This document shows, in pieces, positions 41,812 through 45,177 of a stretch of 45,236 bases of DNA. Location: positions 1-45,236 of the forward strand of contig CAMDAQ010000006.1 of NCBI GenBank assembly GCA_945888705.1, written 5' to 3'. Position 1 is the first letter of the stretch. Every line of letters begins with the position of its first letter. Both the position numbers and the translations under genes were made by a program. Below the pieces are notes generated by a model. That model worked only from the letters and a program-made list of their open reading frames with translations, was not told the DNA's origin and did not search any database. This DNA comes from Singulisphaera sp. GP187 (GTDB taxonomy: Bacteria; Planctomycetota; Phycisphaerae; Phycisphaerales; SM1A02).

Positions 41812-42617
41812 GGGCAGGGAACCGTTGAGGGTGCGCTGATGCGGGTTCCGGCGACGCCACCGGTGAGCAGGTTTGAGAGGGCGGCGGGATCGGCCCAGCC
41901 GGCGATCGTGACGGCTACGCCCGTGAAGCCGGCGGTCTCGAGGGCGCCGCGAACCTTTGGGATCATGCCGCCGGTGATCGTGCCGTCGGTGATGAGCCTG
42001 TCGATCGCTGCAGCATCGAGAGCGGGAATGATGGCACCGCTCGCATCGAGCACGCCCGGGACATCGGTGAGGAAGACGAGGCCTTGCGCGCGAAGGATCG
42101 AGGCGACCGCGGCAGCGGCATCGTCGGCGTTGACGTTGAGCAACTCACCCGATGCGCTCGTGCCGATGCTGCTGACGACCGGCAGCACACCCGCGCCGAG
42201 CAGTGCGCGGAGGCCAGTGGGATCGCCGCCGAGGACTGAGCCCACGCAACCGGGATCGAAGCCAAGGTGCGTGGCCCGGGCGCACGCGGCGAGCCCGGCA
42301 TCGGTGAGCCGAAGTCCGCACGCGCGCGCACCGGCGGCGATCATGCAGGCGACGAGCTGGGCGTTGACCTGGCCGCTCAGCACGCCGCTGATCTGCAGCA
42401 CCTGTTCGGGGGGCGTGATGCGGATGCCATCACGCCGCTCGGTCGTCATGCCGAGTGCGGCGAGCTGGCGATCGACGGCCCTGCCGCCACCATGCACGAC
42501 GACGACACAGCCGGGCTGCGCAGCGTGCATGGCCGCGATCTGCCTGCAGACGACGTCGAGCGCCGATGGGCTGTCCATCAGCGCGCCGCCGAGCTTGATG
42601 ACGAAGGGGGTGCTCAC
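41808..42617 (-). CDS. argB: acetylglutamate kinase
   Basis: 269 residues. It phosphorylates N-acetylglutamate, usually the feedback-controlled step when ArgJ is present. FVIKLGGALMD (5-15) and VVVHGGGRAVDRQL (38-51) bind ATP and substrate; LNVNADDAAAAVAS and TGGMIPKV are family marks. The frame is open upstream to 42908 inside argC, so I chose the GTG at 42617 overlapping the argC stop. It lacks the N-terminal helix typical of arginine-inhibited hexameric kinases, so it may be insensitive; this is inference. Confidence 0.93.
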   Translation of the reverse strand: MSTPFVIKLGGALMDSPSALDVVCRQIAAMHAAQPGCVVVVHGGGRAVDRQLAALGMTTERRDGIRITPPEQVLQISGVLSGQVNAQLVACMIAAGARACGLRLTDAGLAACARATHLGFDPGCVGSVLGGDPTGLRALLGAGVLPVVSSIGTSASGELLNVNADDAAAAVASILRAQGLVFLTDVPGVLDASGAIIPALDAAAIDRLITDGTITGGMIPKVRGALETAGFTGVAVTIAGWADPAALSNLLTGGVAGTRISAPSTVPCP

Positions 42618-43678
42618 GCCAAGGCTCCGGCATCGGTGCGGGCAGCGGTGTGACGCGAAAGGCCCAGGCCCATCGATTCGGGGAAGCCGAAGCGGATGTT
42701 CATGCACTGCAGCGCCTGCCCAGCCGCGCCCTTGACCAGGTTGTCGATGGCGCTCGCGATGACCAGGTGGCCGCGGCGATCGCAACCACCAAGCCCGATG
42801 TCGCAGAAGTTCGTCCGCTCGACGCCCGCCACGCTGGGCCATGAACCTGCGGGCAGCACGCGGACGAATGCGCTGGCCCCGAAGCGGTCGGCGAGCGCCT
42901 GTCGGCATGCGTTGACGGTGGCGCCCGGCGCAAGGTCTGCATGGATCGTGGAGAGGATGCCGCGGTCCCAGCAGCCCAGGTGCGGCGTGAACAGCACGTC
43001 GGCGCCGGTTTCCTGCGCCATCTCGGGCTGGTGGCGGTGCGAGAGCACGCCGTAGGGTTGCATCGAGACTTCGCAGAAGAGGCTCTTCACCGCGGCGGTC
43101 CGTCCAGCACCGCTCACGCCGCTGGTGCTGTCGACGATCACGCGACCGGGCAGGACGAGGCCGGCATCGACCAGCGGTCGCACCGGGAGGATGACGCTGG
43201 TCGGATAGCAGCCGGGCACGGCGATGAGGTGCGCCCCGCTCAACTCGCTCTGCCTGAGTTCGGCCAGGCCGTAGACGGCGGTGGCGAGCAGCCCCGGGTG
43301 ACGATGCTCGAAGCCGTAGTGCGCCGGGTACAGCGACGGATCGCGCAGGCGGAACGATGCGGAGAGATCGAGCACGACAAGGCCCGCATCGAGGAGCGCC
43401 GGCGCAAGCGCCTCGCTTGCTTCGTGCGGTGTGCAGAGGAAGACCGCCTTGGCGCCCGACGCGATGATGGCGGACGGATCGGCCGCCTCGATGGGCAGGT
43501 CGGCCACGCCGCGCAGGCGCGGATGCACGCTCGACAGCGCTTCATCGCCCGCGCGCGAGCCCGAGCCGTAGACGCCGACGATCGACACCTCGGGGTGCGC
43601 GGCGAGCATGGCGACGAGCTCGGCTCCGCTGTAGCCAGCGGCACCGACAACGGCAACGGGAAGGGTGGGCGTGGTCAT
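42614..43678 (-). CDS. argC: N-acetyl-gamma-glutamyl-phosphate reductase
   Basis: 354 residues. It reduces acetylglutamyl phosphate with NADPH. GAAGYSG (12-18) is the nucleotide-binding loop and C157 in VPGCYPTS the catalytic cysteine; SHRHQPEM and GAAGQALQCMN are typical. It follows argR by 24 bases and overlaps argB. Confidence 0.96.
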   Translation of the reverse strand: MTTPTLPVAVVGAAGYSGAELVAMLAAHPEVSIVGVYGSGSRAGDEALSSVHPRLRGVADLPIEAADPSAIIASGAKAVFLCTPHEASEALAPALLDAGLVVLDLSASFRLRDPSLYPAHYGFEHRHPGLLATAVYGLAELRQSELSGAHLIAVPGCYPTSVILPVRPLVDAGLVLPGRVIVDSTSGVSGAGRTAAVKSLFCEVSMQPYGVLSHRHQPEMAQETGADVLFTPHLGCWDRGILSTIHADLAPGATVNACRQALADRFGASAFVRVLPAGSWPSVAGVERTNFCDIGLGGCDRRGHLVIASAIDNLVKGAAGQALQCMNIRFGFPESMGLGLSRHTAARTDAGALA

Positions 43679-43702
43679 GGTGGTGGAAGTGCGGCCGACC
43701 GC

Positions 43703-44170
43703 TCAGGCGGTGGCCTTGCGGCGGGCGGGCGAGGCGGCGACGGTCAGCCGACGCACGAGTTCCTTGGCGTTCGATGCGGTGCGCGTGGCCACGAAGACGC
43801 AGTCATCGCCGGCGATGGTGCCGACGACGCCGCGCATGCTCGATCGGTCGAGCTGGAGCGCCAGCGCGCTGGCCTGGCCCGGCGGGGTGTGGAGCACCAC
43901 GAGGTTCCCGGCCTGTTCGACGCCGGCCAGGAGCCGCCGCGCGAGGGCATCGAGCGCATCGCCCGAGGGCTCGGGTGTGCCATCCTGCAGCCGGTAGCCA
44001 CCGGCGCCCTTGAGCACCCCGAGTTCCGCAAGATCACGCGAGAGCGTGGCTTGCGTGGTTCGAATGCCCTGTGCAGCGAGCTCGCGCTGGAGTTCGTGCT
44101 GGCTGTGCAGCTCGGCGCCGGCGATGAGGCGAGCGATGGCGCGATGGCGTTGGACCTTGGTGGCGGCCAT
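43703..44170 (-). CDS. argR: arginine repressor
   Basis: 155 residues. The N-terminal winged helix contains SQHELQRELAAQGI and TTQATLSRDLAELGV. The C-terminal oligomerisation and arginine-binding domain contains GTIAGDDCVFVATRT. It heads the arginine operon and is probably autoregulated: a palindrome at 44198-44210 overlaps its promoter. ATG at 44170 is 13 bases after a TATATT box, so the leader is very short. Confidence 0.94.
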   Translation of the reverse strand: MAATKVQRHRAIARLIAGAELHSQHELQRELAAQGIRTTQATLSRDLAELGVLKGAGGYRLQDGTPEPSGDALDALARRLLAGVEQAGNLVVLHTPPGQASALALQLDRSSMRGVVGTIAGDDCVFVATRTASNAKELVRRLTVAASPARRKATA

Positions 44171-44180
44171 GGGGAAGTGG

Positions 44181-44211
44181 ATGAATATACAGCGCTCTGC
44201 ATACTATGCAA
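44181..44211 (-). promoter_or_regulatory. argR promoter with ARG-box-like operator
   Basis: On the minus strand TTGCAT (44211-44206), a 16-base spacer and TATATT (44189-44184) form a promoter. The exact palindrome TGCATACTATGCA (44198-44210) overlaps the -35, and TGAATATACA at 44182-44191 looks like a further half-site. Both resemble ARG boxes. This AT-rich stretch stands out from its GC-rich surroundings. Confidence 0.65.
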
Positions 44212-44222
44212 GCGGGTGCATG

Positions 44223-44248
44223 AAAAAACCGCGCCGAGTCGGCGCGGT
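44223..44248 (-). terminator. intrinsic terminator of infC
   Basis: On the minus strand an 8-bp stem (ACCGCGCC / GGCGCGGT) with loop GACTC is followed by six Ts. It is the best intrinsic terminator in the window. It lies 34 bases after the infC stop and directly before the argR promoter. Confidence 0.92.
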
Positions 44249-44281
44249 CGTGCGGTGCTCGTTCGCGGGCGATCCTGTGGA

Positions 44282-44974
44282 TCACTCGGCGTGATCGCTG
44301 CCCTCGTCCGGTCCGTCGTCGTCGGCCTCGGGTTCCTGCGGCGGGAGTTCCTTGGAGCCTTCGATCTTCTGGCCGGCAGCGGCCATCTTGCGCTTGTAGG
44401 TGTCGATCTTGGTGCGGTCGGGCGAGAGGATCGCCGACTGCCGGCGGCCAGCCATGCGGGGCGACATGTCGAGGCGCGCCACGTCGAGCAGCGCGTTGAT
44501 GACCTGCTTGATGAGCTGGTCGCCGATCTCGCGGTGCGCGAGTTCACGCGCGCCGCGGAAGCTCTGCACGATCTGGACCTTATTGCCTTCGATGAGGAAC
44601 GCACGCGCCTGGCGCACGCGAAGCTCGACGTCATGCACGCCGATCTTCATGCTGCGCCCGAGCCGGACTTCCTTGAGTTCGCCGCCCTTGGAATTCTGGC
44701 GATTCTTCTTCTCGGTCTTCGCCTGTTCGTACTTGAACTTGCCGAAGTCCATGATCTTGCAGACCGGGGGGCGCACGTCGGCGGCGATCTCGACGAGGTC
44801 GAGGCCGGCCTCCTGGGCCATGCGCTTGGCCTCGTCGGTCTCGACGACACCGATCATCGTGCCGTGCTCGTCGATCAGGCGGATCGGGCTGATGCGGATG
44901 CGGTCATTGATGCGCGGGCCCGCGGGGGCGAAGTCGCGCTGGAAGGGAGGACGGCGAGGCGGGAACTGGCTGAT
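44282..44974 (-). CDS. infC: translation initiation factor IF-3 (probable AUC start)
   Basis: About 230 residues. GPRINDRIRISPIRLIDEHG, CKIMDFGKFKYEQAKTEKK, GVHDVELRVRQARAFLIEGN and MAGRRQ-type C-terminal motifs define IF-3. The C-terminus carries an acidic tail of some 45 residues beyond the usual end. I place the start at the ATC at 44974 because AGGAG lies exactly six bases upstream, and IF-3 genes are known for AUU-type starts used in autoregulation. The first ordinary candidate is GTG at 45013 (13 codons earlier), which has no ribosome site. The usual partners rpmI and rplT are not downstream; argR is. Confidence 0.9.
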   Translation of the reverse strand: MSQFPPRRPPFQRDFAPAGPRINDRIRISPIRLIDEHGTMIGVVETDEAKRMAQEAGLDLVEIAADVRPPVCKIMDFGKFKYEQAKTEKKNRQNSKGGELKEVRLGRSMKIGVHDVELRVRQARAFLIEGNKVQIVQSFRGARELAHREIGDQLIKQVINALLDVARLDMSPRMAGRRQSAILSPDRTKIDTYKRKMAAAGQKIEGSKELPPQEPEADDDGPDEGSDHAE

Positions 44975-44985
44975 GGGAGGCTCCT
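44972..44985 (-). promoter_or_regulatory. ribosome binding site and ATC start of infC
   Basis: AGGAG at 44985-44981, spacer CCTCCC, then ATC at 44974-44972 in frame with IF-3. No ATG, GTG or TTG occurs at this distance. Confidence 0.6.
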
Positions 44986-45177
44986 GGGTGTCAGCTCGAA
45001 CGGTGATGGCCACGGCGCGCTGACAGCGACCGTGAACCTGATGTCAGGGTTCCACTGCGTGGGTGGAGGATGTCCATGCTCGCTCGCGACGGCCTCATGG
45101 GAGGACGCGAGTGGGGGAAGTCATCATTCGGCGATGGTCCGCTGCATGGGGAAATGACGCCACGTGGCGCCGCGCGG

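Follow-up and report, generated by a model that had tools for sequence, protein, structure and literature searches.

Where does translation of infC, the gene for initiation factor IF3, begin at this locus of a Phycisphaerae-type planctomycete, and would its start codon make the factor a brake on its own synthesis? The window, that is, the whole stretch of 45,236 nucleotides that was analysed, is an entire contig of a 2.36 Mb genome in 186 contigs, and infC lies on its minus strand close to the contig end. The product is IF3: PF05198 (102.7 bits) and PF00707 (73.5 bits) both score above cut-off, and TIGR00168 gives 167 bits against a cut-off of 60. We assign a probability of roughly 85% to the reading that the AUC at 44974-44972, directed by AGGAG, starts IF3 translation, and that through this weak start IF3 most likely keeps its own synthesis in check.

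Table 1. Features at the putative infC start region of the window.
Feature	Position	Strand	Basis
infC coding sequence, AUC start to stop, 230 aa	44282..44974	-	IF3_N and IF3_C domains, TIGR00168, phmmer matches to IF3 structures
Probable infC ATC start codon	44972..44974	-	SD spacing; homologous start ATC, ATT, ATA or CTG in 56/56 countable family loci
Shine-Dalgarno (SD) AGGAG, 6 nt 5' of ATC	44981..44985	-	16S genes found in 5 congeners carry anti-SD CACCTCCTTT
Inverted repeat TGTCAGC..GCTGACA, directly 5' of SD	44989..45025	-	genus-level; not clearly family-wide
GTG, sole in-frame ATG/GTG/TTG; judged non-start	45011..45013	-	no SD; codons after GTG evolve as non-coding
In-frame TGA, limit of any upstream extension	45044..45046	-	

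The first-pass annotation had placed the probable start at an ATC six bases from AGGAG and had noted that the only conventional start, GTG 45013, has no ribosome site. The coordinates are reproduced: AGGAG (44985-44981) and ATC (44974-44972) are separated by the spacer CCTCCC, the ATC is in the IF3 frame, and between the TGA and the IF3 core the GTG is the only in-frame ATG, GTG or TTG. Our start caller, which asks for an SD match of at least 4 nt at a fitting spacing, picks ATC 44974 alone among the candidate codons of the infC frame and finds no SD match at the GTG. By comparison with its relatives, the infC of the window has a start outside AUG, GUG and UUG behind an SD. No 16S gene was found in the window's assembly, while 16S genes were found in five of the eight other genomes of the same genus that were searched; all five carry GGATCACCTCCTTT at the 3' end, and therefore AGGAG matches the anti-SD. 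Pairing with the anti-SD yields a duplex energy of -6.6 kcal/mol upstream of the ATC and -4.4 kcal/mol upstream of the GTG, values that are equalled or undercut at 21% and 49%, respectively, of 5000 random window positions. An SD alone is not rare in the GC-rich DNA of the window, and the single SD-ATC site, not improbable by chance, would not convince on its own. With a lone site convincing so little, it is the relatives that decide the start.

Searches recovered IF3 from 58 of 61 genomes of the window's family (f1), 58 of 61 of a class sample and 94 of 99 of a phylum sample, the samples overlapping. The nearest named relatives are Planctomycetota MAGs L107, L108 and L109 (IF3 identity 98, 96 and 93%; one is named Phycisphaerae). 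We fetched 202 loci, comprising all 58 from the family and all others except G087 and G123, whose matches lack the N-terminus; second fragments of G090, G099, G104 and G140 were left out. After removal of L190 (contig end), L035 (alignment gap, wrong frame) and L276 (anchor failed), 199 usable loci remained, a sample that leans toward the window's own family.

All 56 countable loci of the family are given a non-conventional start by the automatic caller (ATC 35, ATT 13, ATA 6, CTG 2), and L035, which stands outside these 56, was read by eye as ATC behind AAAAGGAATCGACCC. Across the 199 loci the raw counts are ATC 80, ATT 59, ATA 16, ACG 12, TTG 11, CTG 5, ATG 3, GTG 2 and none 11. Calls were set by hand at 21 loci, none of them in the window's family (12 were given a codon, 8 were marked unclear and 1 was left unchanged). 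The reviewed set then holds 168 other starts (ATC 79, ATT 61, ATA 16, ACG 7, CTG 5), 23 conventional ones (TTG 13, ATG 7, GTG 3) and 8 unclear loci; among the 143 planctomycete loci from other families, 112 use ATC, ATT, ATA, ACG or CTG, 23 use ATG, GTG or TTG, and 8 are unclear. At least one non-conventional call occurs in 58 of the 73 families sampled and at least one ATG, GTG or TTG call in 12. An upstream TTG with a 4-nt SD match is present in three of the 56 family loci (L010, L011 and L040). By eye, different genera share an N-terminal motif that runs from the start codon (in many family loci I-A-R-R-R-F/Y-F-R-P) but differ in the sequence preceding it.

The caller returns ATT for infC of E. 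coli MG1655, our positive control. As a second control we used rplT, with a usable match at 36 of at most 180 loci (22 planctomycete, 14 named): ATG or GTG was called at 28, no SD was found at 8, and no other start was called. While none of the 36 rplT loci lacks a conventional start before the core, 84 of 193 infC loci have no ATG, GTG or TTG between the visible in-frame stop and the core.

Codons preceded by an SD at like spacing were also compared in and out of the infC frame. In the relatives this holds for 70/133 in-frame ATC codons vs 26/271 out of frame, for ATT 49/109 vs 25/255, for ATA 15/50 vs 15/163 and for ACG 19/84 vs 40/350; the conventional codons in frame reach 6/55 (ATG), 4/45 (GTG) and 11/73 (TTG). 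Codons adjacent to starts show elevated SD counts as well (ACC 29/99 and TAC 13/49 in frame, CAT 110/294 out of frame), so counts for single codons are not clean, and the 23% for ACG does not on its own amount to proof. An earlier scan that took the strongest SD and then the codon behind it in a wide spacing window did not separate the start from adjacent codons, and the frame comparison and the caller took its place: ATC (24.2 of 199) and ATT (16.7) led in frame, and CAT and CCA, the same sites shifted, led out of frame. What exceeds chance is conservation, namely the 70 of 133 in-frame ATC codons with an SD together with 56 of 56 countable family loci that start outside ATG, GTG and TTG.

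Could IF3 instead be made from GTG 45013, with a 13-residue N-terminal extension and the ATC as an ordinary internal isoleucine codon? This GTG is the sole conventional candidate in frame, and it is unchanged, with its frame open, in all nine genomes of the genus, the best point in its favour, although conservation is high throughout the leader. It lacks an SD match, and of the 13 codons GTG to CCC, 5 vary nonsynonymously and 1 only synonymously in the nine genomes (the window's included), vs 14 and 75 of the 186 codons after the ATC (Fisher p = 0.001, a test with small numbers and related genomes, from which L107-L109 were excluded as likely copies of counted genomes). The in-frame codons upstream of the ATC thus appear to change like non-coding DNA; their conservation as protein, which the first-pass annotation had named as evidence against an AUC start, is not seen. 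Moreover, ATG, GTG and TTG are absent altogether from the in-frame stop to the core at 27 of the 56 family loci, and the codon aligned with the ATC is only ever ATC, ATT or ATA, or twice CTG, where an ordinary isoleucine would be expected to give way to valine and other leucine codons as well. We regard initiation at the GTG as very improbable. The start of infC at AUC, by comparison, is strongly supported by the family and phylum data; comparative sequence supports both its position and the long avoidance of ATG, GTG and TTG there.

The leader was searched for further elements. Members of the genus retain the inverted repeat next to the SD, in some genomes as a U-G variant. A leader hairpin is weak at the level of the family, with a mean longest stem of 6.7 vs 5.9 in mononucleotide shuffles of the 56 loci. 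The leaders of three congener loci gave no Rfam match at gathering score, and no sigma-70-like promoter was found in positions 1100-1600 of the congener locus L292, where a terminator-like hairpin directly follows thrS. An upstream frame of 35 codons (ATG 45098 to TGA 44991) ends 16 nt before the ATC, and its translation might couple ribosomes to infC. All nine genomes of the genus preserve this frame together with its stop, but its variable codons, 3 synonymous-only vs 14 nonsynonymous, led us to reject it as coding, and by eye no SD precedes either of its ATG codons; such coupling is extremely doubtful.

Myxococcus dsg/IF3 has an AUC start. AUU, AUC and AUA starts of infC are already known, from E. 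coli, Streptomyces and S. aureus. Like E. coli infC, the planctomycete gene encodes IF3, has a start outside AUG, GUG and UUG behind an SD and follows thrS, as seen in the congener L292 (TIGR00418, 431.8 bits, cut-off 383.65; the window ends before that gene). Unlike the E. coli gene, it has AUC and not AUU, and the thrS-infC gap, measured in L292 from the thrS stop to the ATC, is 326 nt vs 3. Of the E. coli-type order thrS-infC-rpmI-rplT, the thrS part is found in L292 and the rpmI-rplT part is not: downstream of infC (window 42614-44285) there is instead an ArgR-like ORF, with 118.7 bits just below the TIGR01529 cut-off of 130.45, followed by argC (TIGR01850, 376 bits, cut-off 233.6).

The same ATC codon and the same proposed loop are described for Streptomyces infC in the accessible text of PMC5472188, which also states that in most Streptomyces the annotated infC start is wrong. 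The 'different rare codon' of the first-pass annotation had therefore already been in print; what differs is the phylum, together with the additional ATT, ATA, ACG and CTG calls in planctomycete relatives. In S. aureus, as the available part of PMC13009471 reports, infC likewise has a non-canonical start, AUA, with autoregulation proposed there too; that start was measured by retapamulin ribosome profiling, whereas the planctomycete AUC comes from comparison. For the ATT of Xanthomonas euvesicatoria infC the same argument, that there is no conventional in-frame start, appears in the accessible sections of PMC5559785, there with mass spectrometry peptides where the planctomycete evidence is comparative. 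ATT starts of infC are further reported, in the portions of the articles at hand, for Listeria (PMC13068326) and B. subtilis (PMC1805508).

What might such a start do? Where the start codon is not ATG, GTG or TTG, IF3 destabilises the 30S complex; on this ground infC is described as autoregulated in E. coli, with ATT, and in Streptomyces, with ATC (PMC5472188, accessible text). In the window, IF3 would be translated from the AUC at 44974-44972, guided by AGGAG; when IF3 is scarce the AUC would be used more, and when it is abundant, less. Since IF3 destabilises complexes on such codons, it most likely holds back its own synthesis through the weak start, and by analogy with E. coli and Streptomyces we infer autorepression through the weak codon for the infC of the window. 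An AUC start could also merely keep IF3 output low without feedback. A weak start reduces expression in any case, and in S. aureus reporters in RPMI medium output from three other genes' non-canonical starts was about 10% of that from AUG (PMC13009471, available part). Yet the factor that discriminates against these codons is IF3 (PMC5472188, accessible text), the gene that retains them phylum-wide is IF3's own, and the rplT control shows no such starts; low output without feedback is unlikely, and self-limitation remains the reading we prefer. The conventional starts at 23 of 199 phylum loci imply that the device is dispensable.

Apparent ACG starts of infC behind SD sites are observed at L300 and L302-L305 (family f58) and at L306-L308 (family f28). 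In f58, ACG is found in five of six genomes, each from another genus, and the sixth has TTG or ATT; in f28 it is found in 3/3 genomes from two genera, two of the genomes being near-identical at this locus. Three of the f58 genomes and all of f28 are already within the 199. From the in-frame stop to the core, L300 and L307 contain no ATG, GTG or TTG and no ATC, ATT or ATA, and L305 contains only an ATC that is part of the core motif; with no other plausible start at these three loci, ACG or something odder must serve. Of all our results, these apparent ACG starts in two families were the least anticipated. A literature search that covered few subscription papers found no report of ACG infC starts and no paper on planctomycete infC starts. 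A survey of genes preferring non-AUG starts by Gvozdjak and Samanta (arXiv, 2020), cited in other papers, may cover part of these findings.

Conventional starts cluster by family, as ACG does. TTG is called in 4/4 loci of f14 (L077, L080, L195, L214) and 5/5 of f27 (L081, L093, L102, L225, L227), and ATG in 4/4 of f40 (L098, L240, L254, L260; calls set by hand); for f43, the caller gives CTG in each of its two genomes. Beyond the phylum our coverage consists of named loci only. Raw calls at 79 named loci, some of them planctomycetes, are ATA 42, ATC 17, ATT 9, none 8, TTG 1, ATG 1 and CTG 1; at the named alphaproteobacterial loci (L131-L186, nearly all Rhodobacterales by title) the aligned start is ATA in 38 of 43, ATC in 4 and CTG in 1, and by eye the Nitrospirales L136, L150 and L165 appear to use ATG.

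The first-pass annotation had suggested that a shared device in a distant phylum would be 'old or recurrent'. On an IF3 protein tree (FastTree, 196 rows, unrooted, 65 of 191 inner branches open) the minimum is 11 changes between conventional and other starts and 54 between codons with ATG, GTG and TTG pooled. The pattern within the phylum suits an old trait that was lost several times and whose codon drifted, but gain and loss are inseparable on this unrooted tree. From its presence in most planctomycete families sampled, the device looks old, with drift of its codon. We think it rather probable that discrimination by IF3 holds infC to starts other than AUG, GUG and UUG, within which the codon drifts freely among AUC, AUU, AUA, CUG and ACG phylum-wide with occasional escapes to UUG, GUG or AUG, and that ACG is a conserved start in f58 and f28.

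An IF3 start of the putatively autoregulatory type is now placed in Planctomycetota. Gene finders that accept only ATG, GTG and TTG would have to misplace or truncate infC in such genomes. The TTG, GTG and ATG lineages offer a natural comparison for what the loop is worth. If the phylum-wide reading is true, lineages with and without the loop would be available for comparison, and ACG would be a natural, conserved bacterial start codon.
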